Notes: generated by a model from the letters alone, not told the origin. Positions 42,330-56,760 are shown, counted from the first letter of the stretch. The stretch: DNA of 64,000 nt from Flavobacteriaceae bacterium (GCA_016764435.1 JAESRX010000009.1:1-64000); one strand, 5' to 3'. Translations and numbers: made by a program.

Positions 42330-43382
42330 ATGAAAGGAATAAAAAACTATGAATACTGGCCTTCTTACCTGTTTTACATTCCCTTAATCCCCTATGCCAT
42401 TTACTTGGCAATTAAAGCCAGAAGTGGCGGTTTTTTCTACGCGGTGAACCCCGGTATTGAAAACAGTGGCGACGGGACAGAATCCAAATACAAAACACTG
42501 CAATTAATCCCCGAAGCCTTAAAGCCTGTCAGCATATACATTCCTAGAAATAGTGACACCAAAACGGTCTTAAAAGCCCTGAACGACCAAGAGCTAAAAT
42601 ACCCTTTAATCATGAAGCCTGACCTTGGTTTCAGAGGGCTCTTTGTCAGTAAAATCAACAATATTCAAGCCCTTATTGCCTACCTAAAAAAACACAATAG
42701 CCTCCATCTAATCCTACAAGAATACATAGATTACCCCAACGAATGTGGGCTCCTTTTTTATAAAATACCTGGGCAAAAAAAAGGCGTCATTAGCTCCTTA
42801 ACCTTTAAAGAATTTAGTGCTGTCACCGGGAACGGAACCCATAGTATTCAAGAACTTATCCTTCGCAATAAACGGACAAAACGCTATGCCACACTCCTCT
42901 TTAAATTAAATGCCCAGCAACTCACTAGCATCCCTGAAAAAGGTGCAGTAATTCGTTTAAATAACATTGGAAATCACGCAAAAGGAACACGTTTTATAAA
43001 TGCCAACCACCTTATTTCAAAGAAACTCACCAAAAGCTTCCAGCAGATAGCCTCCCAAATAAAAGGCTGGGACTATGGACGTTTAGATATCAAGTATCAA
43101 AACTTTAGCGATTTAGAGCAGGGAAAAAACATTAAAATCCTTGAAATAAACGGCCTGATTTCTGAACCCACACACATGTATGATAGCCGTACAGGAAACT
43201 ACATAAATTGCTTGCGAACGCTGAAAAAACATTGGAAAATCATTTTTACCATTGCAAAGGCACACAAAAGGCATCAAACATCTCATTTTAAAAGTTTCCG
43301 TTCCTTTATAAAAACCCTAATAAAATTGAAGCATTATTCAACATCTATCAGGAAAATCACTAAAAAACACGATATTGAGTAA
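42330..43382 (+). CDS. ATP-grasp family protein of unknown substrate
   Basis: A 350-residue protein with an N-terminal membrane-associated segment (WPSYLFYIPLIPYAIYLAI). The ATP-grasp fold is indicated by the lysine strand YPLIMKPDLGFRGLFV, the hinge LILQEYIDYPNECGLL, the DYGRLDIKYQ strand and the metal-binding ILEINGLISEPTHMYD. ATP-grasp enzymes ligate an acid to an amine or hydroxyl. The substrate, here probably membrane-associated, is unknown. The C-terminal 60 residues are Lys/His-rich. Confidence 0.78.
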   Translation: MKGIKNYEYWPSYLFYIPLIPYAIYLAIKARSGGFFYAVNPGIENSGDGTESKYKTLQLIPEALKPVSIYIPRNSDTKTVLKALNDQELKYPLIMKPDLGFRGLFVSKINNIQALIAYLKKHNSLHLILQEYIDYPNECGLLFYKIPGQKKGVISSLTFKEFSAVTGNGTHSIQELILRNKRTKRYATLLFKLNAQQLTSIPEKGAVIRLNNIGNHAKGTRFINANHLISKKLTKSFQQIASQIKGWDYGRLDIKYQNFSDLEQGKNIKILEINGLISEPTHMYDSRTGNYINCLRTLKKHWKIIFTIAKAHKRHQTSHFKSFRSFIKTLIKLKHYSTSIRKITKKHDIE

Positions 43383-43577: not shown

Positions 43578-44450
43578 ATGAAAAAAATTTTAATTATTCT
43601 CACTTTATTTTGCACCTTGAATATGCTAGGTCAAATTAAAATAGGAGACAACCCTCAGACAATACACCCCAATTCTATCCTAGAGCTGGAGAGTACTGAC
43701 CGTGCTTTTGTTTTGACAAGAGTTACGACCGCACAAATGAACGACATCCTTCCTTCTAGAGGGGCCATGGTTTATAATATTGACCAGAAATGTGTTTTTC
43801 AATTTGACGGAGTCCTTTGGAGGTCCTTATGTACCGAAAATACCGATGACCAAGAAATAGACTTCACTTTTGATGCCACCACGAACGAGCTTACGATAAC
43901 CTTAGAAGATGGAGGTACCAAAACAGTGAGTATTGACAAGCTAGAAATTAAAGCTGGAAATGATGGAGACATCCTAACCACCGTAGGAACCAATGTAGAA
44001 TGGACCAAACATATAGGTGCCGTTGCGGAGAGCTATTTAACCAGCAATCCTCAAGTCATAGGAAACACCTTTACCAATGTTGTTTTCGGGAACACAGGCG
44101 TCGTAGATGGGAGCAACTTTACCACCACTAATAATTCCATTATTATTAAAACACCCGGTGTGTATAAAATTACCTACCGCGTGAGTTTGGAATTTAAAAG
44201 CGGAAACAACCGCTCTGAATCAGAATTTCAACTGGTACAAAATAACACCGTCATCCCAGGCTCTACCGCTTTCGGAAAGCATAGAAACTCTAGGAATAAT
44301 AAAGACACGGCCACGGCCACACGAATTATAGAAGTATTTGGAACTGCTCCACTAAGTGTAGCCATTGCCGTACAAGCAAAACACGTCTCCGGAGCTGCGA
44401 CCTTACAAACCGTCGTAAACGCCACGACATTTTTAATAGAAAAACAATAA
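43578..44450 (+). CDS. Secreted tail-fibre-like protein 1, TNF/C1q-like head
   Basis: A 290-residue exported protein (signal KKILIILTLFCTLNMLGQ). Residues 20-88 follow the Bacteroidota fibre pattern 'IKIGDNPQTIHPNSILELES ... RVTTAQM ... GAMVYNIDQKCVFQFDGVLW'. A tail-fibre strand-repeat (TFDATTNELTITLEDGGT) and GDILTTVGTNVEW come next. The C-terminal ~130 residues form a jelly-roll-like head (GVYKITYRVSLEF ... FLIEKQ) similar to that of the next gene. It lacks the EGD/YIGL module of the other array members. No type IX sorting domain is seen. First gene of the array; probable surface adhesin, function unproven. Confidence 0.72.
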   Translation: MKKILIILTLFCTLNMLGQIKIGDNPQTIHPNSILELESTDRAFVLTRVTTAQMNDILPSRGAMVYNIDQKCVFQFDGVLWRSLCTENTDDQEIDFTFDATTNELTITLEDGGTKTVSIDKLEIKAGNDGDILTTVGTNVEWTKHIGAVAESYLTSNPQVIGNTFTNVVFGNTGVVDGSNFTTTNNSIIIKTPGVYKITYRVSLEFKSGNNRSESEFQLVQNNTVIPGSTAFGKHRNSRNNKDTATATRIIEVFGTAPLSVAIAVQAKHVSGAATLQTVVNATTFLIEKQ

Positions 44451-44498: not shown

Positions 44499-46544
44499 AT
44501 GAAAAAAATATTACTTTTATTAGTCCTAGTCCTTGCAGTGCAAGTGTCTTATGGGCAGGAAGAAACTTCACATCAGAAGTATACACAATCGGATATTACA
44601 GATTTCCAAACTAAATTTACTGCTGCAGAAGGAGATTTATACCAATTAGATACTGACAATAAAGTTTGGTATATTGGATTAAGTAACGGTTCTGTACGTT
44701 TATTAAGTAATGATATTACTGGTCCAGTAAAAGGAGTATATACATATACAAACTCTGATGGTAGCACTGGAACTATTGACACAAATGGTTTAACAATTAC
44801 CAATGTAATCGCTGGAAATAAAATTGCTACTATCACACAACCTGATGGTACAACTACGGTAGACATAGATGAAACAATAACAACTATTACAGATCTAGTC
44901 CTTCCGGCTGATGGAAATTTAATAGCTACCTATACTAATGAAAAAGGAGATGATTTTGTTATTACTGAGACACTAACATCTTTTACAGAAACACTAGTAG
45001 GTACTTATATATTTACTGATGAAAAAGGAGGTACCACAACAGTGAACAAAGCAGACATAACCGAAGGAATTTTTACTTTCACAAACAATGACGGTTCAGA
45101 TGTTATAATTAACACAAATGGGCTTACTTTAACTGCTCCAATCACAGGACACTTAATTACAAAAGTAACACAACCAAACGGGGTTGTTACGAATATTAAT
45201 GAAACAATTACTTCAATCTCTGACGAAGATGACGGAAAAATAACGTTTAATGATGAAAAAGGTACAACATCAACTGTAGTAAAAGCGAAAATAGTAGCTG
45301 GAGTAGCTGCTAGTGGAAAATACTTATACACAAATGGACTTGCAACGGACAACTTAACCATAGAAACTGCAGCAAGTACGAATCCATTTAAAGATGCTGC
45401 TGCTACAGATGCAATGACTTCCTTAAATGTACAAGATGCAATTATAGAGTTAAAGGATGCTCTAGCTGACAACACTGTAAACGTTGATGAACTTTCAATA
45501 GTAGGAGATGGAAATACAACACCTCTTTCTGTTCAACTTTCTGGTAGTACTCTTGCACTAGTTGCTGACGGTATTAAAGTAGCAGACTTAGGAATTACAA
45601 ATGCTCAATTAGCTTTAAAAGCAGTAACTTTATCTAAAATTGCTGATGGTTCAATTGATGAACAAATTATGCAATGGAACAATACATCAGGAAAATGGGA
45701 ATTAGTTACATCAGAAGCAATACCAAGTGGTACTGCCGATGCACAATACCTATATTGGAATAATACAACTAAAGAATGGTTTGCAAAAGATCCTACAGGA
45801 AATGCTTTAAAAGCTCAAACAGACGGTACTTTAGATGTTTTAGTTGATGATTCTACTATTGAGATTAACGCAACAACAAATAAATTAGTTGTAAAAGATA
45901 ATGGAATTACAACTGCTAAAATATTAGAAGGAGCAACAAACACCGTATTAAGAACAAGTAGTACTGATGTAACTGAATGGGCATTAATTGAAACCCAAAA
46001 TATTAAAGACAGAACAGTTGCACCTATCGATTTAAAAGACGGTACAGCTGCTGACCAAATATTAAAGTGGGATGGTACTAACTGGATATTAGCAACTGCT
46101 AACACAGGGGCATTTGGAGAATTTATGGACATCACAGGAACGCAAACTATTGGAATAATAGACGCGAAAACTCCTATTGAATTTGGAACTACCAATACAA
46201 TAACAAATGCAACTTATTATAGCGCTACAACAAACACAACTTTTAAAGTGCTAGTTGCTGGTACTTACAAAGTTTCTTACCGTGTAAGTTTAGAAATGAG
46301 TGGAAATACGAGAACAGGAGTTAATTTCAATTTATATAATTCAACAACATCAACTGACATTCCTGGAACATTTAGTTCTTTAGTTTTAAGAAACAAGCAC
46401 TTTATGTACAACACAGCTACAGTTGTTAAAATTGTAGAATTTGAAAAAGATAATGAATTTCAAGTTATCTCGACAAGATACAAAGGTAAAGCAGCAGCTA
46501 CCACTGCTAAAAACGGTTCTTCTATTACAATAGAAAAACTATAA
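44499..46544 (+). CDS. Secreted tail-fibre-like protein 2, with internal duplication
   Basis: A 681-residue exported protein (signal KKILLLLVLVLAVQVSYGQ). Residues ~43-70 hold the EGD module (AAEGDLY ... WYIGLSNGS). A ~54-residue unit occurs twice (about 78-132 'TNSDGSTGTIDTNGLTIT' and 189-243 'TNNDGSDVIINTNGLTLT'), each ending in a 'TQPxG ... ETIT' strand. Fibre motifs follow (LYWNNTTKEWF; ADQILKWDGTNWILATAN). The head (GTYKVSYRVSLEM) is homologous to that of the previous gene. Its codon use is richer in GAA/ACA than that of its neighbours. Adhesin-like; function unproven. Confidence 0.72.
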   Translation: MKKILLLLVLVLAVQVSYGQEETSHQKYTQSDITDFQTKFTAAEGDLYQLDTDNKVWYIGLSNGSVRLLSNDITGPVKGVYTYTNSDGSTGTIDTNGLTITNVIAGNKIATITQPDGTTTVDIDETITTITDLVLPADGNLIATYTNEKGDDFVITETLTSFTETLVGTYIFTDEKGGTTTVNKADITEGIFTFTNNDGSDVIINTNGLTLTAPITGHLITKVTQPNGVVTNINETITSISDEDDGKITFNDEKGTTSTVVKAKIVAGVAASGKYLYTNGLATDNLTIETAASTNPFKDAAATDAMTSLNVQDAIIELKDALADNTVNVDELSIVGDGNTTPLSVQLSGSTLALVADGIKVADLGITNAQLALKAVTLSKIADGSIDEQIMQWNNTSGKWELVTSEAIPSGTADAQYLYWNNTTKEWFAKDPTGNALKAQTDGTLDVLVDDSTIEINATTNKLVVKDNGITTAKILEGATNTVLRTSSTDVTEWALIETQNIKDRTVAPIDLKDGTAADQILKWDGTNWILATANTGAFGEFMDITGTQTIGIIDAKTPIEFGTTNTITNATYYSATTNTTFKVLVAGTYKVSYRVSLEMSGNTRTGVNFNLYNSTTSTDIPGTFSSLVLRNKHFMYNTATVVKIVEFEKDNEFQVISTRYKGKAAATTAKNGSSITIEKL

Positions 46545-46559
46545 CACCCTATTAAACTT

Positions 46560-46590
46560 AAAAGTTGCTCCTACCCTGGAGCAGCTTTTA
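46560..46590 (+). terminator. Hairpin ending the first array segment
   Basis: A 12-bp stem AAAAGTTGCTCC / GGAGCAGCTTTT (loop TACCCT, one T-G pair) 16 bases past the stop, with a short T tract. Confidence 0.65.
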
Positions 46591-46714
46591 ATAAAAGACT
46601 ACGCCTACCAAATCATTAGAAACCCCCATTTTTAATGTATGTTTTTAAAACTGCCCTCCCTAATTCGCAGTATTTAAAACTTCAAGTGACCGTTTATTTT
46701 TAATAAGTATAGCC

Positions 46715-47809
46715 ATGAAAACAACGTTATCCCTATTCGTTTTTTTTCTTGCATTTAATGTTCTATTAAATGCACAAACCACCATACTAGATGCGGACAC
46801 CCACCCTACTACGGGCACAAAGGACGCTTCGGAAGGAGATCATTATATTGGAGATCCTAGTGGCACTATATTTATCGGCCTTTCTACAGGCCTCTACCAA
46901 CCTATTTACAAAACACTCGGCGAGTTTTTAGCCATTGGCAACAGCGCCGGAAATCAAACAATTTCAAATTTAGCGGATCCTGTGAATCCACAGGATGCTG
47001 CTACTAAAAATTATGTAGATTCTAAGTCTACAGGTATTTACAAAGGAGATGGAGCTTTAACAAATGATAGAATACTAAAAGGAGGAGGAGTAAATTTAAC
47101 CTATAATAATCTTAGTATACAAAGCGTATCTGCAAATCAACTTAATATTACTTCAACTGAAAACAATATTTTAAGCGCTTCTAATTCTATAAATCTAAAT
47201 AGCAATACGAATATTATTGGCAATTTACATGTCAGCGGTATTTATTATGATACTAGCTTCGACCCCGGTATCAACGAACAACTTTTAAGCGCCACTGGAA
47301 CAGGAACCAATTGGATTCCCGGAACTATTCCTGCTGCTACTCCGATAATGCATTACACCAATAAAAGTTCTTTTAGTAACACGTGGGCGGATACAGGAGT
47401 AGAAGATATAACCAGTATAGAAATAACAACTACTGAAACTAGTATTTTTGACATCAACTATAACTTTAATTTTTTCCGATTGATTGGGAAAGAAGTGGAC
47501 AATAGAGCCGTTTATGTAAATATCACAGGAAGTGCAATAATAAATGCTCAAATGATATCAACTACGAATATATATATGCTACAGAATGCTTCATCTAGTA
47601 CAGTACTCTCTCCTACATTAAACTGTGATAAAATGTTCGAACTACCTGCCGGCACTTATACATTTACTCTTAAAACAGAAAGCGACATTGTTTATCCCTC
47701 CAGTCAAGACACTAGCGGAATAGACATTACAAGTATTAATGAATCTGGTACAAATGATGACTATACAGGCTGGTCTTTTGAAATTTGTGTTACTCCTGTC
47801 TCCATTTAA
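46715..47809 (+). CDS. Secreted tail-fibre-like protein 3, 'TGWSF' head
   Basis: A 364-residue exported protein with a signal ending LLNAQ. The EGD module is at ~38-65 (ASEGDHYIGDPSG, then IFIGLSTGLYQP). The classical phage-fibre repeat DPVNPQDAATKNYVDSK is at ~88-104, followed by IYKGDGALTNDRILKGGG and a linker QLLSATGTGTNWIPG. The C-terminal beta domain ends in TGWSFEICVTPVSI. It is the first of three genes separated by 9 and 2 bases, so they form one operon. Confidence 0.72.
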   Translation: MKTTLSLFVFFLAFNVLLNAQTTILDADTHPTTGTKDASEGDHYIGDPSGTIFIGLSTGLYQPIYKTLGEFLAIGNSAGNQTISNLADPVNPQDAATKNYVDSKSTGIYKGDGALTNDRILKGGGVNLTYNNLSIQSVSANQLNITSTENNILSASNSINLNSNTNIIGNLHVSGIYYDTSFDPGINEQLLSATGTGTNWIPGTIPAATPIMHYTNKSSFSNTWADTGVEDITSIEITTTETSIFDINYNFNFFRLIGKEVDNRAVYVNITGSAIINAQMISTTNIYMLQNASSSTVLSPTLNCDKMFELPAGTYTFTLKTESDIVYPSSQDTSGIDITSINESGTNDDYTGWSFEICVTPVSI

Positions 47810-47818
47810 AACACTGTT

Positions 47819-48958
47819 ATGAAACCCATATTCACTTTCGCTATTTTTATGATACTTACTACTAGTATCAGTTGGGGGCAGACTCCCATTACAATCGTAG
47901 ATAATTCTACTATAGTCACAAATACTACTGCAGCTGAAGGAGATTATTATATAGGAGAAGCTCCCGTTTATCAGATTTATATAGGGTTAGCCAATGGAGA
48001 ATACCAGCCTGTATACGATAAAAATCTCGCTCAGATTTTAACGATCAATAATAGTGCAAACAATTTAACTATAATAAATATTTCAGATCCTGGAACTGAA
48101 CTAATTGACGACCAAGATGCTGCTACTAAAAATTACGTAGACAATAATTTAGCGGGAACTATTTACTCAAACGATGGCACCTTAGCAGCTGTTCGTAATG
48201 TAGAAGGAGCTGCTTATGATTTAGCAGAAAAAAATATCGCAACCTATTCTATTAAAGCAACGAATACTTCCTTAAACAGTAGTGAAAAAATTAACATATC
48301 CGCTGCCACAGCTATAAATTTTAATACCACTGACATTCATAATGCCATCTCGGTAAGGGGTAATTTTATTGATAGCAGTGGGGCCATAGGTATCGCAGGA
48401 CAAGTCTTACGTTCCGACGGGACTAATACGGAGTGGGTCACTTCCAGTGCTACTCCGAAAACCATTATTTTATACAGTAAAAAAAGCACGATTGCTGTTA
48501 TTGAAACAAATCAAGACTATGAAGAATGGGCTGGAACATCACAAAATGGTCGTACCATAGTGAGTACCATAGATTTTACCATTACAGAAGAAAGTATTGT
48601 TAACATTAATTATAATTTTAGATATTTCAAGATTTCACATCAAGCGGCAGGAATGCGAAGAGCTTATTTAACAATTAGCGACCTAACAGATCCATTATTT
48701 CCGGTCATTATAGAAGACTATATATTACCCACAGTAACTTCTCCCATATATTTACCTTCTGGAAAAACGAATTTTTGGATAAAAGGAACTAATAAAGCAA
48801 ATAAAAATTATATCTATAACAACACTGGGAATTACAGGGTAGAACTTAGAATTTCTGGCGATTTCAAAATAGGCACAGGACTGAACATTCCTGGCCCCAA
48901 TAAATATAATTTCACAGGCTATACCTTTGATGTTTGTGTAACTCCAAAAAGTTTTTAA
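47819..48958 (+). CDS. Secreted tail-fibre-like protein 4, 'TGWSF' head
   Basis: A 379-residue paralogue of the preceding gene. Signal peptide ending SISWGQ; EGD module AAEGDYYIG ... IYIGLANGEYQP; fibre motif QDAATKNYVDNN; IYSNDGTLAAVRNVEG; linker GQVLRSDGTNTEWV; C-terminal NFTGYTFDVCVTPKSF. Nine bases downstream of the previous stop. Identity to the neighbour is confined to these motifs; the strands between have diverged. No sorting domain is evident. Confidence 0.72.
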   Translation: MKPIFTFAIFMILTTSISWGQTPITIVDNSTIVTNTTAAEGDYYIGEAPVYQIYIGLANGEYQPVYDKNLAQILTINNSANNLTIINISDPGTELIDDQDAATKNYVDNNLAGTIYSNDGTLAAVRNVEGAAYDLAEKNIATYSIKATNTSLNSSEKINISAATAINFNTTDIHNAISVRGNFIDSSGAIGIAGQVLRSDGTNTEWVTSSATPKTIILYSKKSTIAVIETNQDYEEWAGTSQNGRTIVSTIDFTITEESIVNINYNFRYFKISHQAAGMRRAYLTISDLTDPLFPVIIEDYILPTVTSPIYLPSGKTNFWIKGTNKANKNYIYNNTGNYRVELRISGDFKIGTGLNIPGPNKYNFTGYTFDVCVTPKSF

Positions 48959-48960
48959 GC

Positions 48961-50115
48961 ATGACAAACATTCTCCATTACATCATATCATCAAAGAAAT
49001 TCTTATTGAATTTAATGATTTTTACAGCTAGTTTACTTTCTTGTTATGGACAAGGTATTGTTACGCCAATAAACACCGCTACTTTGGCATTAAATAATGC
49101 ATCAGAAGGCGACTATTTTATAGGAACAGAAAATCCTGTCGGATTAATTTATCTCGGATTACAAAACGGTACATACCAACCTCTTTTTACAAATGGTCTT
49201 TCTGAAATAATAAATTTTAATAACAATGCAGACGCTAATAGAATAATTGAGCTCCCCCCCCCTATAAGTCCACAAGATATTGCTACAAAACTATATGTAG
49301 ATAGTAAATCCGCAGAAAGTATATATGCGGCTAATGGCAGCCTAACATCTCATAGAATCCTTAATGGTATGAATTTTAATTTAACCTATGAAAATATAGC
49401 CCTCTATACAAATAAAACAATCACTTATAATCTTACAGCTACTAACGATATTAATTTTAGCGCTGGGGTAAAAAACATATTAAAAAGTAGTACAAACGTT
49501 ACTGGTAACATTGCTATTAGCGGTATCTATCTAGACAGCGATGGAAACCCAGGTACTCAAGGCCAGTTATTAAGTTCCACAAACATAGGCACCAAATGGA
49601 TTACCTCCAGCGTTTCACCAAAGACCATCCAATATTACACCTCAGAAAGTGCTAAAACATATCCTGCTCCTGAGTACTTCTTTGAGACATGGCCGATTTC
49701 AAGTACAACCGTAGGTCAAACACATTCCATTATTATAACAGAAAAAAGTATTTTAAGTTTCAATTATACGTTTACTTTTTTTATTGACCCAAATTATCAA
49801 GAAGGAAATAGAATTACTTATGTTAATGTAAAAAACCCGGATGGGACAATTGCGTTTGATCATTTGTCACTTCATAGAAATACTCCTTTAAAAAGTGTAA
49901 AAAACGACAATAATGCGACTGCTTATCTAGGAACAAATTACGGTTCAAAAAAAGTGGTACTTACAACTCCTGGAATCTACACGATTGAATTAATAACTTT
50001 AGGAGACATGCCAGTTTATACAGGGAGTAATGATTTCGATGCAAATATTGTAAATGCATTATATAATAATACAGGCTGGAATTTTGATATTACCATAATC
50101 CCTCAACAAATTTAA
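48961..50115 (+). CDS. Secreted tail-fibre-like protein 5, 'TGWSF' head
   Basis: A 384-residue paralogue; start taken at ATG 48961, two bases after the previous stop (an in-frame upstream start would overlap that gene). Signal peptide ending LLSCYGQ. EGD module ASEGDYFIG ... IYLGLQNGTYQP; a variant fibre motif SPQDIATKLYVDSK; IYAANGSLTSHRILNG; linker GQLLSSTNIGTKWI; C-terminus NNTGWNFDITIIPQQI. Followed immediately by a decayed paralogue end. Confidence 0.72.
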   Translation: MTNILHYIISSKKFLLNLMIFTASLLSCYGQGIVTPINTATLALNNASEGDYFIGTENPVGLIYLGLQNGTYQPLFTNGLSEIINFNNNADANRIIELPPPISPQDIATKLYVDSKSAESIYAANGSLTSHRILNGMNFNLTYENIALYTNKTITYNLTATNDINFSAGVKNILKSSTNVTGNIAISGIYLDSDGNPGTQGQLLSSTNIGTKWITSSVSPKTIQYYTSESAKTYPAPEYFFETWPISSTTVGQTHSIIITEKSILSFNYTFTFFIDPNYQEGNRITYVNVKNPDGTIAFDHLSLHRNTPLKSVKNDNNATAYLGTNYGSKKVVLTTPGIYTIELITLGDMPVYTGSNDFDANIVNALYNNTGWNFDITIIPQQI

Positions 50116-50123
50116 TTACCTAA

Positions 50124-50261
50124 CAACCATCAACAACAGACACAGAAGGAAACTTCCCTATACAGTCTGGAAGTAATAGTTTCAACTCCAGTGTTACGCA
50201 AGCCCCCTACAACTTCACCGGGTGGAATTTCAATGTTTCCATCACCCCAAAAAGCATCTAA
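50124..50261 (+). pseudogene. C-terminal remnant of a ninth fibre paralogue
   Basis: A frame opened just after a stop at 50121 and closed by TAA at 50259-50261 encodes 45 residues ending YNFTGWNFNVSITPKSI. This is the exact C-terminal signature of the 'TGWSF' head group (compare TGYTFDVCVTPKSF). No start, signal peptide or EGD module remains, so it is the tail of a lost gene, probably trimmed by recombination between paralogues. A 72-codon frame overlapping it in another phase is not a gene. Confidence 0.75.
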
Positions 50262-50727
50262 ACCCCTCTTTTTCACCAAACTCAACACCTGTTTTTTCAA
50301 TCAAAAAAACATGACGAAACACAGTTTTACGCGTAATTTTTACCTAAAAAAGAAGGATAAAAACACCTTTATATTTTTGCTTATACGGAAATATATCGTA
50401 ATCAACTGAAAACAATATAGTTACACCTATTACCCTAGTAACATAATAGGCATAAAAAATGAACAAAAGTTACATAGCAGTATTCCTATAATTCCTATAT
50501 TTGCTATGACCCAAATGTATTTTCATAGACCTGTTTAGAAATAACCCTGCATTTTATTTCATCTGGATATTATACGGAATGATGGCCACCGCTATCACTT
50601 TGTATTTTAACGATGAATAAACGCAAGGATAAGGCCTTCGAGACGAGCTACATGCAGGTTAAAAAAAAATTGATAGTATAACACCCCAAATAAAATCACT
50701 ACATTTTTTAGGGAAAATCTAGTACGT
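50262..50727. other. Spacer with two -7 boxes and a short protein-like fragment
   Basis: Two TAnnTTTG boxes occur (50372-50379 TATTTTTG; 50496-50503 TATATTTG). After the second, an ATG at 50506 opens a 10-codon frame, while an overlapping frame encodes the membrane-helix-like segment LFRNNPAFYFIWILYGMMAT and on to FNDE, stopping at 50617-50619. This could be a frameshifted small gene. Otherwise nothing. Confidence 0.4.
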
Positions 50728-52032
50728 ATGAAAAAGTTATTAATAATGTCGATACTTCTGTTAGGGACAGAGTTCGCATTAGCACAAAATTTTATTACAG
50801 ATAGCGAAGTTGGTGACCTCACAGCATCAGAAGGAGACTTATATGAAGCCACTCCAAGTGGTACCGTATATATTGGCTTGGCCAATGGAGCCTATCACGC
50901 CATCGCAAAAGGAAATATCTATACTGATGATGGAGTATTGACAGGAAATAGAATTATTAATGGAACTGGTAACTTCAATGTGAAATTTGAAGCACTCGAT
51001 CATTTCGATGTTTACACAAAAGGTGAGATTAGATTAACGGCAGATACTTACACCATCCTCTCTGGGAAAGCTGGAATTATCATGAACCAAAAAGTTCAGT
51101 TTATTGGTGCTCTTACAGATAAAGATTGGGAATCTGGTACACTGGGCCAAATCTTAAGCTCCACTGGCACAAATATCAAATGGATAGATAATCCAAGCGG
51201 AAAATCCATTTACACTCACGGTGGCACTTTAACTAGTGACCGTGAGCTTTTAGGGGCTTCCTATAATTTATCCTTTGAAAATGTTCGTAATTTCAACACC
51301 AATGTAATCAATAGATTGAGTAAAAGCTTGTCTTCTCAGTTCTTAGCCACCAATAAAATTGAATTAAAATCAAGTGCTGGGAATGTAGAAATAGCGGCTC
51401 CTTTAGGTATTGAACTTCAGAACAACACATCCGTAACTGGAAACCTCTCTGTAACAGGAAGCTATAGCGACAGCAGTACCGACACCGGTAATACAGGAGA
51501 CATACTATCCTCTACGGGGACAGCTACTGGAACGGACTGGCATCCACTTATTAGTACAGACCCGAAGAATGCCGTGACCATGGGAACTGACAAAGGCGTT
51601 TTTGTTAAAAAAAATACCATTAAGTTTCTCTCTAAAGAAAGTACAAAACACGAAAATTGGGGTATTAAACCTTCGAATAATGAAGACCGTGTAGCATCCC
51701 ATACTGTAACCCTTGAAGTAGCAAGTATTGTCAATATAAATTACATATTTACCTTTGAAAGAACCAATGGTACTACCGGAGCATTCCGTACGGTCCATAT
51801 AGACATCTCTGGAGACATCATAAAAACAAGCCAGATGAGTACCTTGACAAACACCTTTGGCACATCAGAAAGATGGGGTACCTGTGCGGCTAGCCGTAGT
51901 TTTAAACTAGCCCCTGGAGAGTATACCTTTTCTATGAACACCTATGGAAGTCATCCATGTACTACAGAAGCACAAAATGACCTCATGTACGGCTGGAGTT
52001 TCGATATTACAGCTACTCCCCTCAACGAATAG
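50728..52032 (+). CDS. Secreted tail-fibre-like protein 6, two fibre units, 'TGWSF' head
   Basis: A 434-residue exported protein (signal KKLLIMSILLLGTEFALAQ). EGD module ASEGDLYEATPSG then VYIGLANGAYHA. It carries the 'DG-x-L-x-x-x-R' unit twice (IYTDDGVLTGNRIINGTG and IYTHGGTLTSDRELLGA), each followed by a linker (GQILSSTGTNIKWI; GDILSSTGTATGTDW). The head ends YGWSFDITATPLNE. It lacks the DAATK motif. The internal duplication suggests shaft-length variation among paralogues. Confidence 0.72.
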   Translation: MKKLLIMSILLLGTEFALAQNFITDSEVGDLTASEGDLYEATPSGTVYIGLANGAYHAIAKGNIYTDDGVLTGNRIINGTGNFNVKFEALDHFDVYTKGEIRLTADTYTILSGKAGIIMNQKVQFIGALTDKDWESGTLGQILSSTGTNIKWIDNPSGKSIYTHGGTLTSDRELLGASYNLSFENVRNFNTNVINRLSKSLSSQFLATNKIELKSSAGNVEIAAPLGIELQNNTSVTGNLSVTGSYSDSSTDTGNTGDILSSTGTATGTDWHPLISTDPKNAVTMGTDKGVFVKKNTIKFLSKESTKHENWGIKPSNNEDRVASHTVTLEVASIVNINYIFTFERTNGTTGAFRTVHIDISGDIIKTSQMSTLTNTFGTSERWGTCAASRSFKLAPGEYTFSMNTYGSHPCTTEAQNDLMYGWSFDITATPLNE

Positions 52033-52417
52033 GAACAGCGAAAGAGTCCACTGCCTACAATCTTAGAGTCTTGTTTTTAATCATTCTAGAAGACAGCACT
52101 CGCTCATATCGCATTTTCAAATTCATAAACGTCATTTCAGTAAAACCCGTTCTTATGTTGCCTATTTATACCTGAATTCCATAAACCGCCGCATGCCTTT
52201 ATTGCGGTACGCCTAAAAAGCAATCCATTTTACCCTAGCTAATAATGCTATTTTCTCCTGTTTTATATTCCTATAAAACCAGCAGAAACACCGCTCAATA
52301 CAAAAAACACAGTCCCATTCATTGGATCGGTTTTATCAAAAAGTTAAAGCTGCCTAAAGTAACAACAGTCCCCACAAAAAAATGACACAATACACTATTT
52401 CACTACGCTTAAACAAC
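52033..52417. other. Gene-free spacer within the fibre array
   Basis: About 385 bases. No frame with paralogue motifs, no clear terminator and no TAnnTTTG box immediately upstream of the next gene. Confidence 0.4.
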
Positions 52418-53998
52418 ATGTCTAAATACCTTTGCATCCTTGTTTTCTTGTTCCTTCTAACGTTTCATATGCATGGACAAACAATGATATTTGACAACGA
52501 CATTAAAAACAATACAGCATCCGAAGGAGATTTATACAGGCACCATAAAAGCAATGTGATTTACATAGGGCTCAGTGATGGAAGCTACCATCCTATTCTT
52601 ACAAATCTACAGGAAATATTAGCGCAAGCCAATGATGCTGCCAGTAAAAAAATAACAAATCTAGGAACACCTTTAAAACCAAAAGATGCAGCGACTAAGG
52701 AATATGTAGATAAATTAACTAGTGGCACCAACTGGCTAATAGTCGGGAATGCCCCTACAAATACTTTTAGTTTTCTAGGAACCACTAACGATGTTAAAAT
52801 GCAAATACGTTCTAACAATCTTCCAATGTTAGAATTTGGAAGAAGAAAAACACTGGGACTTGTGCAACCTTTTCCAGACTATGAAACTGGAGACCAACCT
52901 TTAGTCCTTTTAAATGGAGATGGAAATACCGCAGCCTTACAATTCACTGCCTCAGAAGCCTCTTTTTACAAGCCTATGTTTTTTACCACCCCTAATGGAA
53001 ACTTTCGTTTAAAAGGAAGCTCAGGAAAATCAGACTTCTTTGAAATAGGATCTGCGGGTCCTGACAATGAAGGGCGCTTAGAATTTATTATAGGTGATGA
53101 TGGCGCCGAACCTATAATATTTAAACGCTATGATTTTAGAAACGGAAAATTCTATCAAGAATTTTTCAGAGTCCAAGGAAGTGACAATACTGCCAATGCT
53201 AAAACCAGGTTCGGAATTAATATAAACACCACTCATAAACCTATAGTTCCCGGCTACAAAGATAACGCCAATTTAGGGTATAATATCGCAAACTCCACCC
53301 TACAAGTAAATGGATCCATCTCACTAAGTATTATAAAAACCACAAGAAATTTAACCCTAACAGAGGAGCATCACACCATCATCATAAATGAAAATCATAG
53401 GATAAGGCTTCCAAATGCCAGCACTTCCAAAGGGAGAAATTACATCCTAAAAAACACTACTAATAACACCATAACTATTAGTAATTACAAAGACGCATCA
53501 GGGGAAAATAGTACAAAAATTTCTCCTAAGACAATCTTATTTATACAAAGTGATGGTAGCAATTGGCAACAAATCAATAATTCCAATACTTCCAGCAGTA
53601 CTGTTTCTACACTTAACGTTACAAAAGAAACTATAGGCTATGTATTTGCCGCTTCTTATGTTCATCTTAACGGAAGTAATGACAAACACAATATAAATGT
53701 AACGCACGCTAGTATTAAAAGAGAGGAAAAAGGTGTTTACAATATCCAATTTTCAACTCACCATCCAAACGGTATGTATTATGACATTAGCCATAGTAAC
53801 TATTCAATCATAAAAGGAATTGTAACACAAATTTCAAATAGATCCAGGAATGGATTCAACATTTCATTCTTTAAGCCAACCTATCAAAATGCTAAGAAAA
53901 AAAAGCCTGGAAAATTAGTATACGTCCCTATTGATTTGGATTGGACCTTTAACGTTTCCGCTACAAAAGAAGTCGTAACCAATATCAGTTTTAAGTAA
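52418..53998 (+). CDS. Secreted tail-fibre-like protein 7, long shaft, distal-tail head
   Basis: A 526-residue exported protein; start taken at ATG 52418 so that the signal peptide (SKYLCILVFLFLLTFHMHGQ) begins the protein. EGD module ASEGDLYRHHKSN then IYIGLSDGSYHP; fibre motif LKPKDAATKEYVDKL. The middle (about 120-320) is a distinct, non-paralogous region. It then shows a phage-tail-like stretch (TRNLTLTEEHHTIIINENHR ... LPNASTSKGRNYILKN) and a head with GVYNIQFSTHHPNG that resembles the next gene's head. Adhesin-like; function unproven. Confidence 0.7.
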   Translation: MSKYLCILVFLFLLTFHMHGQTMIFDNDIKNNTASEGDLYRHHKSNVIYIGLSDGSYHPILTNLQEILAQANDAASKKITNLGTPLKPKDAATKEYVDKLTSGTNWLIVGNAPTNTFSFLGTTNDVKMQIRSNNLPMLEFGRRKTLGLVQPFPDYETGDQPLVLLNGDGNTAALQFTASEASFYKPMFFTTPNGNFRLKGSSGKSDFFEIGSAGPDNEGRLEFIIGDDGAEPIIFKRYDFRNGKFYQEFFRVQGSDNTANAKTRFGININTTHKPIVPGYKDNANLGYNIANSTLQVNGSISLSIIKTTRNLTLTEEHHTIIINENHRIRLPNASTSKGRNYILKNTTNNTITISNYKDASGENSTKISPKTILFIQSDGSNWQQINNSNTSSSTVSTLNVTKETIGYVFAASYVHLNGSNDKHNINVTHASIKREEKGVYNIQFSTHHPNGMYYDISHSNYSIIKGIVTQISNRSRNGFNISFFKPTYQNAKKKKPGKLVYVPIDLDWTFNVSATKEVVTNISFK

Positions 53999-54333
53999 CA
54001 GGCGCTGTTTCGTGTCTAAAATTAAATTCACTCCACACTTTACACACAGACTTCTCTCTTAAGAGCATCAAATGATAAGGTTCAACACAGAACAAATAAA
54101 TAGTATTTCTACTTCAGAAGAAAGACGAGGAAGAAGGCCCTTCATACACTCGGATATATAGGTACAACCAGCGTTTATAAATTCACAATGATTACTGTAG
54201 GCTAGACAATAAAATCAAAAACTCAAACAGGTGAATTCTACGGATGCACGATGACATGTCACCGCTCCCTTGAGTTTTATAATTATACGCAAGAGGTGAT
54301 TCTCTCAAATTCTTAAAAATCAATATTATTTCA
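53999..54333. other. Gene-free spacer within the fibre array
   Basis: About 335 bases with no gene or paralogue remnant that I can read. It ends at the promoter of the next gene. Confidence 0.4.
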
Positions 54334-54341
54334 TACCTTTG
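54334..54341 (+). promoter_or_regulatory. -7 box of fibre gene 8
   Basis: TACCTTTG, a full TAnnTTTG match, 52 bases before the ATG at 54394. Confidence 0.55.
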
Positions 54342-54393
54342 CCCCTTATAACTACGGTTTTAATTGCTACCAATCCGTTATACATCATTTGCT

Positions 54394-55281
54394 ATGAAAA
54401 AAACAGTACTACTTGTGCTCCTTCTTTGGGGGTGCCTGAGCATTGCTCAAAACACCATACCCGACAGTCAAACCTCTACGAATACCGCCGCTGAGGGTGA
54501 TATTTACATTGGAGTTCCCAGTGGAAACATCTATCTAGGATTGAGTAATGGCGTGTACCATTCCCTCAATTTTAATATAGCCACTACTAATTTGTACACC
54601 ACAGATGGAACTATTCCAAACAACCGAGTCGTTACAGGAAATCCCTCTAGCTATTTATGGTTTAATAATTTTAAGGAATTTTACATAAATGCCTCTTCTG
54701 TAATCAGACTGGCCTCTGATTCTAATATTCAACTCGAAGCCAGTAATTACATCCGTCTGGTCGCCGACATCGGTATTCGGTTACAAGGAAACACCACGGC
54801 TTTAAAGGATTTCATCCTAAAAGAACGCCTCGTTGACGGCACCTTTAGTAGTGGAAGTCCTGGAGATATCCTTAGCTCCACAGGAGCAGCGACCAAATGG
54901 ATACCAAAAAATGCGCTCATAAGTACAGATGACACGAATAGTATTACCACAGGAACCGATCAAGGTCTTTATTATGAAAACCCGATAAAAGCCTATGGAA
55001 AAATAACAGCCTCCGGTCCGGCCGCTAAAATAATAGGAGCGCTGAGCAGTAGGATTTCTAGAGGACAATATCAAATTATATTTACCACGCCTTTTTCACA
55101 CAATAACTACACCATACAATTGGCTCAAAAAAGCAGGAATGGTCAGGGAAATGACGATCCAGGTATTGCTTATTACGACCAAACCAATACCGGGTTTAAA
55201 GTGAGAATTGGTGACAATGATAATGGTGGATCGGACCGAAATAAATTTGATTCCGAATTTATGTTCACCGTCATGGACTAA
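54394..55281 (+). CDS. Secreted tail-fibre-like protein 8, distal-tail head
   Basis: A 295-residue exported protein; the ATG at 54394 begins the signal peptide (KKTVLLVLLLWGCLSIAQ). EGD module AAEGDIYIGVPSG then IYLGLSNGVYHS; LYTTDGTIPNNRVVTG; beta-strand ladder (IRLASDSNIQLEASNYIRL); linker GDILSSTGAATKWIP. The head (AYGKITASG ... GQYQIIFTTPFSHNNYTIQL ... FMFTVMD) resembles the distal domain of phage tail fibres. It is the simplest complete member of the group and useful as a reference for domain limits. Confidence 0.72.
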   Translation: MKKTVLLVLLLWGCLSIAQNTIPDSQTSTNTAAEGDIYIGVPSGNIYLGLSNGVYHSLNFNIATTNLYTTDGTIPNNRVVTGNPSSYLWFNNFKEFYINASSVIRLASDSNIQLEASNYIRLVADIGIRLQGNTTALKDFILKERLVDGTFSSGSPGDILSSTGAATKWIPKNALISTDDTNSITTGTDQGLYYENPIKAYGKITASGPAAKIIGALSSRISRGQYQIIFTTPFSHNNYTIQLAQKSRNGQGNDDPGIAYYDQTNTGFKVRIGDNDNGGSDRNKFDSEFMFTVMD

Positions 55282-55584: not shown

Positions 55585-56760
55585 ATGAAAAAATTATCGA
55601 CTTACCTTCTTTTAACAGGCTTACTTTTTAGTGGAGCTGGAAACATATACGCACAGGCTAATTATGCCTTAGCCACCCATGGAAATATCCAAATGCACGC
55701 TGGTGCTTCCATTGGCTTCCATACGAACTTAATTAACAATCAGTCTTTTGATACTAATTTAGGCTTGGTGGGGTTCTATAGCACTGACGAAACCTTGAGT
55801 ATTGAAGGAACTCATATTCCACGATTTCACAATTTTGAAGTGGATACAAAATACAATTTAGAACTGTATACTTCGGTAGATGTTCTAAACGACATGTCCT
55901 TTATAAATGGACTTATCATCACGCCTAGAGACGAAGTAAACATCGCCTTAAACTACTTGTCTAATTCTATGTTTGCCGGAGAATCCGACCTTACCTATAT
56001 AGATGGATATGCCAGTGTTATTGGAATTGAAAATTTTACATTTCCGATAGGAGATGACGACCGCTTAAGGCCCTTAATAATCCCTGAAAATACAAGCTTT
56101 TTTAAAGCTGCTTATTTTTTCGAGGATCCAAACAGTCCGGATTATTTCAATGATAATTTTGACACCGACCAACTTGTCAATACCCTTACCAATGTAAGTA
56201 CACTAGAATTTTGGGACCTTAATGGCGCCGAAGAAACATCCGTTACCTTAACATGGGACGATGTAAGTGACCTGCATGGATTGACGCCTATTCTTAAAAA
56301 ATTACGTGTCGTAGGTTGGAATAAAAACACTTTAAAATGGGACAACTTAGGAAATACAGGCTTCACAGGTGGATTTAGTAATGGAAGCATTAGCTCCATT
56401 CCTTTTACCCCAAACGACTACGAAGTCATTACCTTAGGATCTGATTTAAGAGGTGTCTTAAGTCCCGATGTTATTACGGATAATATCAACTATGTGATCA
56501 GTCCGAATGAGGATGGTGTGAATGATTATTTAGTCTTCGACAATATTGAAGTATTTTACAACAATCAATTGACCATCTACAACCGATGGGGATCATTGGT
56601 TTATAAAGCCATTGACTATAAAAATTCTTGGGATGGAACTTCTGATCATAGTTTAACCATCTCACAAACCAAGAAACTTCCTACCGGAACTTATTTTTAT
56701 GTATTGTACTTGAATGACAAGTCCAAGACTAGAAAAGGATGGGTGTATATTACTCGTTAA
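55585..56760 (+). CDS. Type IX-secreted surface protein with CHU_C (gliding-associated) C-terminal domain
   Basis: A 391-residue exported protein (signal KKLSTYLLLTGLLFSGAGNIYAQ). Residues 30-290 form an all-beta region (HAGASIGFHTNLINNQSFD ... FPIGDDDRLRPLIIPE). The last ~85 residues are a CHU_C/type B sorting domain: ISPNEDGVNDYLVFDNIE, LTIYNRWGSLVYK, GTYFYVLYLND, KGWVYITR. Such domains direct export through the type IX system, and some partners need a PorP/SprF-like protein, which is not adjacent here. It ends the fibre array and may anchor or organise the preceding proteins. This is inference. Confidence 0.88.
   Translation: MKKLSTYLLLTGLLFSGAGNIYAQANYALATHGNIQMHAGASIGFHTNLINNQSFDTNLGLVGFYSTDETLSIEGTHIPRFHNFEVDTKYNLELYTSVDVLNDMSFINGLIITPRDEVNIALNYLSNSMFAGESDLTYIDGYASVIGIENFTFPIGDDDRLRPLIIPENTSFFKAAYFFEDPNSPDYFNDNFDTDQLVNTLTNVSTLEFWDLNGAEETSVTLTWDDVSDLHGLTPILKKLRVVGWNKNTLKWDNLGNTGFTGGFSNGSISSIPFTPNDYEVITLGSDLRGVLSPDVITDNINYVISPNEDGVNDYLVFDNIEVFYNNQLTIYNRWGSLVYKAIDYKNSWDGTSDHSLTISQTKKLPTGTYFYVLYLNDKSKTRKGWVYITR

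Follow-up and report, generated by a model that had tools for sequence, protein, structure and literature searches.

Using sequence profile searches and gene-neighborhood comparisons we identify a short N-terminal beta module shared by an array of secreted, tail-fibre-like proteins in a marine member of the Flavobacteriaceae, whose presence across genomes correlates with that of the C-terminal TNF/BclA_C-like head of the fibre encoded directly upstream. We propose, with a confidence that stops just short of even, that this module may act as a plug by which short fibres dock onto the head of the upstream hub fibre. The locus lies in a stretch of 64,000 nucleotides (hereafter the window) and contains the following features, with proteins designated by their start coordinates:

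42330-43382, ATP-grasp-like protein weakly similar to RimK/cyanophycin synthetase, immediately before the array, its place kept in related genomes
43578..44450, + strand, upstream fibre with a classic N-terminal hairpin (TTAQMNDILPSRGAMVYNIDQKCVFQFDGVLWRSLC) and a TNF/BclA_C-like hub head at 44079-44447
44499..46544, + strand, EGD fibre 1, with the module at 44601-44714, a repeat shaft and a hub-type head at 46176-46541
46715..47809, + strand, EGD fibre 2, with the module at 46805-46915, the tail-fibre block DPVNPQDAATKNYVD and a jelly-roll head
47819..48958, + strand, EGD fibre 3, with the module at 47909-48022
48961..50115, + strand, EGD fibre 4, with the module at 49078-49194
50142..50258, + strand, remnant of a lost array member (the final 39 codons of a paralogue resembling 48961) in a long intergenic gap
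50728..52032, + strand, EGD fibre 5, with the module at 50803-50910
52418..53998, + strand, EGD fibre 6, with the module at 52496-52606 and the tail-fibre block PKDAATKEYVD
54394..55281, + strand, EGD fibre 7, with the module at 54466-54576 and a Gp53-like tail-fibre C-terminus (below cut-off)
55585..56760, + strand, CHU_C / T9SS type B sorting-domain protein, which closes the locus

The original prediction described seven ORFs with a common motif after the signal peptide, and all of these were recovered at the starts given for them (44499, 46715, 47819, 48961, 50728, 52418 and 54394), with those at 48961, 52418 and 54394 being internal ATGs of slightly longer ORFs. The module (A-[SA]-E-G-D-x-[YF]...GL-x-x-G) directly follows a Q-rule signal peptide in each of the seven, and its A, E-G-D, G-L and last G are invariant. 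It occurs once per protein, at residue 34-49, which is 14-24 residues past the signal-peptide Gln. A six-frame scan of the window, including one with a loose pattern, recovered no match to the motif beyond the seven, and among composition-preserving shuffles the pattern was matched in 1 of 20,000. All seven obey the Q-rule for Bacteroidetes signal peptides (PMC10653852) and are therefore Sec-exported proteins rather than lipoproteins; a lipobox Cys is found in none of them. Likewise, neither type of T9SS CTD (CHU_C or Por_Secre_tail) is present in any module protein, 55585 alone having one.

Searches of Pfam, NCBIfam and PHROG returned no domain covering the module, bearing out the earlier impression that it has no name. 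Profile matches in the PDB were to designed 'Cake' proteins and a baseplate protein (E>=0.47) and were set aside, and a beta-propeller blade (YIGLxDGxL; E 0.19) was dismissed given the single copy of the motif. The short N-terminal domain Mtd_N (PF18454) of the phage major tropism determinant, a receptor-binding protein, bears some likeness to it: sub-threshold matches fall on the module and classic-hairpin sites in Sediminicola luteus and in a second genome (G038), with the best on a module site scoring 15.5 bits and the cut-off of 26.3 bits being reached in 0 of 12 genomes.

As had been claimed, the module is the sole segment common to the seven proteins. The accompanying statement that shaft and head vary is right in part: heads differ among the paralogues, but five of the seven also share shaft or head sequence. 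With the module removed, 46715, 47819, 48961 and 50728 still align almost end to end at 26-35% identity; the shaft of 54394 is common with that of 50728; and 52418 and 46715 have a 36-residue block in common. When its module is cut off, 44499 has nothing in common with the other six; its C-terminal head is that of 43578, a protein outside the coordinates considered earlier. The block following the module in 46715, 47819, 48961 and 52418 conforms to N-L-x-x-P-x-x-x-x-D-A-x-T-K-x-Y-V-D, a common tail-fibre element that is also found in phages, giant Bacteroidota fibres and a Bdellovibrionota fibre. The version in 46715 (DPxxPQDAATKNYVD) was considered as a possible part of the new module and rejected, being this same phage and Bacteroidota element. 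In a low-confidence monomer model of 46715 (pLDDT ~50) the module forms three short strands and the head a jelly roll, and Foldseek searches with this model recovered TNF/C1q proteins, phage lambda gpJ and the Bdellovibrio MAT protein Bd1399. The module fibres are probably trimeric, and are predicted to be surface-exposed and adhesive.

The matches of the shaft blocks to phage tail-fibre families might indicate prophage or phage-tail remnants, with the motif perhaps arising by chance. This reading is exceedingly improbable and already contradicted, because every protein has a signal peptide, 52418 finds no match in 50,697 phage records, and the flanking genes are the same in related genomes. 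Among four genomes of the genus the array varies in the number and order of module genes and its flanks are unchanged. Fragments of CHU_C genes with stop codons lie inside two of the module arrays (G002:C36:2492-2686 and G003:C83:34149-34358), a pattern suggestive of array growth through duplication of units comprising a fibre and a CHU_C gene. There is no DNA-level self-similarity within the array of the window, and its duplications are accordingly old.

Comparison with fibres from other genera indicates that the EGD...GL segment is an N-terminal beta module of ~35-40 residues, a lineage-restricted variant of a short hairpin found at the same place elsewhere. There, related fibres display a hairpin of the type 'TTxQMNAI..GAMVYN..YYNG..W'; in short fibres from the same kind of locus it takes the form NATTTEIxxIxSPxxGSLIYN...QYNGxxWE (L256 and L264) or GTTAQITSIxxPVEGxxAYSTDEKIxYYYNGTxWV, the latter on almost every short fibre of L260 and L263. 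In-between forms also occur, such as AEEGMLVYDN (L258), EGDVWYDSS...YDDVSGW (L262) and EGDIWFDTS (L299), and module proteins in L296 and L293 retain the classic TTLEITAI / TTVEIQAI motif, so that TT-x-E-I-x-A-I stands before both module types. An hhalign comparison of a profile that includes this upstream motif with the classic profile gave 74% and a score of 24.2 (best of 300 column shuffles, 17.3), the eight rows of the former having been chosen by eye because they retain the motif. Without the upstream motif, the module showed no significant hhalign match to a broader set of classic hairpins, and its profiles matched only GD-type hairpins (92%) that had themselves been selected by a pattern biased towards sequences of this kind.

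Homologous N-termini replace one another in front of related distal sequences. A small protein of ~130 residues (...NELFFED..YISxxIN...TQPxxLATVxGLTYN) exists with either N-terminus, as does the head ...KTAGxDAGVGI.xTA...HLTGDL along with its downstream secreted partner. The presence of the same heads behind a different hairpin in other genera is what one would expect if the attachment end and the tip are exchanged separately.

Some of these fibres belong to recurrent gene pairs. Short fibres with the TAGxDAGVGI head precede a cognate secreted protein of ~300 residues (L230:8145-9597, L040:3061-4952, L258:1943-3370 and L264:12041-13646), constituting a conserved two-gene cassette across genera with different N-terminal modules; in L230 and L040 this partner is ArabFuran-catal-like in Pfam (22.6-26.3 bits vs a cut-off of 25). 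In another cognate pair, a ~130-residue protein with a conserved C-terminal part invariably precedes a secreted protein of ~640-705 residues (L045:6609-9122, L044:1800-4213, L234:13741-16061, L260:4336-6667 and L263:3021-5353), two examples of which were scanned and returned no Pfam match. A third pair joins a module fibre with a ...PEGLTCTIxF head to a secreted ...ARYRADxx protein (L043:8601-10268 and L228:5228-7042), and a similar C-terminal sequence (ILAKWGVNL) is found on the module protein itself in L041:3349-4935.

Profile searches for the module in genomes, with profiles A1, A2 and A4, recovered it always as the N-terminus of Sec-exported tail-fibre-like proteins. These searches, and those for the head described below, covered a part of the Flavobacteriales genomes, and the module was found in eight genera belonging to four families, usually with 3-8 copies per genome. 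The genus of the window, represented by NORP MAGs of Flavobacteriaceae, was positive in 4 of 4 searched genomes with 6-8 copies each, and S. luteus has eight module genes. Each module protein that we looked at is secreted and fibre-like, with an N-terminal module and neither a T9SS signal nor a lipobox. In a draw of genomes from the order, 4 of 396 were positive (the window's own together with G038, G048 and G193, which stand for single genera of other families); in a draw from the phylum, 1 of 395, the window's own; and a later draw from the family added three more (G819, G889 and G994). These figures bear on the idea that the module targets CTD-less proteins for export across the outer membrane. 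Such proteins, being Sec-exported with no CTD or lipobox, do need another route; nevertheless, a general signal would be expected to occur more widely, and the EGD form is absent from fibres occupying this position in other genera. We regard this explanation as quite improbable.

In every array where it is visible, the gene directly upstream of the first module gene codes for a fibre with a C-terminal head ending in ...GSSLIIEKL. A partner with correlated presence had been suggested as something to look for, and it is this TNF/BclA_C-like head that behaves as one. Using a head alignment drawn from module loci, strong matches were obtained in 10 of the 11 module-bearing genomes vs 0 of 392 others. 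Within the order draw, head matches at E<1e-40 came from all four module genomes and from no other of the remaining 392 (Fisher 1e-9), the next-best matches being two weak ones at 1e-11 and 1e-13; the other module genomes known at that point all possess it. A head model built from the window's genus alone detected the head in the remaining lineages with values of 1e-24 to 1e-30, followed by a gap to 1e-8. The three genomes from the later draw served as a fresh test: the head is present in G889 and G994 (5e-42 and 3e-35) and absent from G819, an assembly that is 81% complete and in 610 contigs. There are one or two hub heads per genome vs 1-8 module genes.

BclA_C (PF18573) matches 9 of 9 hub heads at E<=0.1 (best 4.8e-9), with the two window proteins at 24.9-27.2 bits, under the curated cut-off of 38 bits; against the PDB, the weak top matches of the hub-head profile are BxpB/ExsF-type chains (E 0.05-0.09). 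The hub fibre of G193 (L220:15260-16500) is present as two overlapping ORFs of 145 and 278 residues and may be frameshifted or mis-assembled; that of S. luteus has 3259 residues.

The head gene of G994 and its single module gene are on separate contigs, and six of the S. luteus module genes lie away from the hub locus; linkage alone therefore fails to explain the association. Still, the co-occurrence could stem from joint transfer of an operon, with only these two cases countering simple linkage. This matters for the alternative that the module is a folding or registration cap that starts the trimeric shaft and has no partner, the head and the module having co-spread as one cassette. The module directly precedes the shaft and is predicted to form three short strands, fibres whose heads are of other kinds have hairpins comparable to it, and the above-mentioned resemblance to Mtd_N of a phage receptor-binding protein points in the same direction. 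A pure cap, however, need not track one particular head, including in G994, and gives no reason for the sameness of the module across genes with unrelated shafts; we accordingly consider it an unlikely explanation, albeit one deserving serious attention. The original suggestion of an anchoring or assembly module agrees with the constant N-terminus, the exchangeable shafts and heads, and the cell-proximal position; the module may be an anchor as opposed to a folding cap.

The protein specifically put forward as the binding partner was 55585, and here the distribution argues otherwise. Full-length homologues (E<1e-60) are found in 18 genomes devoid of the module, whereas three module-bearing and nearly complete genomes (G038, G048 and G193) yield CTD-level matches only; hence it is not the correlated partner. 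Each of the 27 homologues examined is nonetheless encoded immediately behind a fibre gene or, in L262 and L264, behind a fibre and its partner, and in the window's genus and in S. luteus it closes the locus. Thus, the conserved association of 55585 is with fibre loci of flavobacteria at large and not with the module. A first scan of genome contigs with 55585 found no match, and its predicted structure (pLDDT 81) had no convincing match in the PDB. Anchoring of the fibres by the module to this type B T9SS protein, or to another outer-membrane component, would draw on this invariable adjacency and on the ability of PorP-like proteins to retain proteins with a type B CTD on the cell surface (PMC9143113). 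Against it stand the above distribution and inspection of these loci by eye, in which no PorP/SprF-like protein was recognised, and we deem it improbable.

Returning to the plug-and-hub proposal, short tail-fibre-like, probably trimeric surface proteins would carry exchangeable heads, and their N-terminal modules would dock on the C-terminal TNF/BclA_C-like head of the hub fibre 43578. Since 44499 bears both a plug and a hub head on one protein, it could extend the chain. Such a design fits the small number of hub heads relative to modules, the lineage-specific N-terminus on unrelated tips, and the independent swapping of the two ends; in it, the module would bind the hub head directly. A second hub and plug type possibly exists at a few loci in other genera, combining another head with a NATT/SATL-type N-terminus. 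The long fibres of L256, L264, L124, L098 and L122 have in common a head ending GNDDPGISYxNQTxxxFEVIIGDNDNGGTDRxRFDSEFMFTILDL, and in L256, L264 and L124 the fibre with this GDNDNGG head is followed by short fibres with a NATT/SATL-type hairpin. The module protein 54394 ends with a similar head.

By architecture the closest family is the MAT superfamily of Bdellovibrio bacteriovorus, whose invariant N-domain is proposed by the authors to bind a surface element (PMC10769870). MAT proteins likewise combine a signal peptide, an invariant N-terminal domain, a trimeric tail-fibre-like shaft and exchangeable tips, some TNF-like, in many paralogues per genome (PMC10769870). They are beta-prism fibres on the cell surface; for the fibres here, trimers and surface display are predictions. 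Here, a Sec signal peptide precedes a fibre-like protein in 7 of 7 (all Q-rule, with tail-fibre blocks), and the tips vary, with the Foldseek matches of 46715 to TNF/C1q and Bd1399 providing a TNF-like example. In contrast, the MAT N-domain is beta-rich and spans ~130 residues, and the conserved part here is ~38 residues; the phage-type shaft block begins ~50 residues after the signal peptide in 46715 and 52418, leaving too little room for a domain of 130 residues. In L135, by contrast, the fibre of a member of the Bdellovibrionota does carry a long N-terminal domain. The correlated hub fibre, the operon-like array, the cognate secreted partners of some members and the T9SS protein at the end of the locus further set the present system apart.

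A different parallel is offered by the anchor-branched receptor-binding proteins (RBPs) of phage G7C and Klebsiella phages, in which a first fibre has a docking domain and second fibres combine a short conserved N-terminal peptide with variable distal parts; attachment is proposed to occur via this peptide, which differs between groups (PMC6872550). The locus described here likewise has a short conserved N-terminal peptide on variable fibres and, in its first fibre, a conserved domain whose presence goes along with that of the peptide (co-occurrence being the extent of the parallel). However, the phage RBPs are virion proteins of the tail, whereas our proteins have signal peptides, and the phage dock is T4gp10-like and lies behind the N-terminal anchor of the first RBP, whereas the proposed dock is a C-terminal BclA_C/TNF-like head, with no T4gp10-like docking domain. 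In the Bacillus exosporium, a 38-residue N-terminal domain of BclA attaches the filament to the jelly-roll trimer BxpB (PMC10470788), again a short N-terminal domain of a trimeric filament on a jelly roll. The sequence likeness is that of the hub head, for which BclA_C is the best Pfam match, with the available scores under the curated cut-offs, and BxpB/ExsF-type chains are weak top matches in the PDB; moreover, BclA belongs to a Gram-positive spore coat and has a collagen stalk. T9SS type B cargo represents a further point of contact, in that the locus ends with such a CHU_C protein, the module proteins themselves having no CTD.

Our literature search found no account of how CTD-less, non-lipid-anchored fibre-like adhesins stay on Bacteroidota cells, and the co-occurrence of module and hub head yields a specific, testable pair in this regard. 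If the plug-and-hub proposal is true, one attachment point could serve many interchangeable binding tips. More tentatively, and as a picture that may well need revision, these loci might represent a cellular surface counterpart of the branched phage receptor-binding complexes, in which a TNF-like hub fibre would display a changing set of plug-in adhesins, some with a secreted partner, with the cassettes spreading among Flavobacteriales and each lineage having its own plug type.
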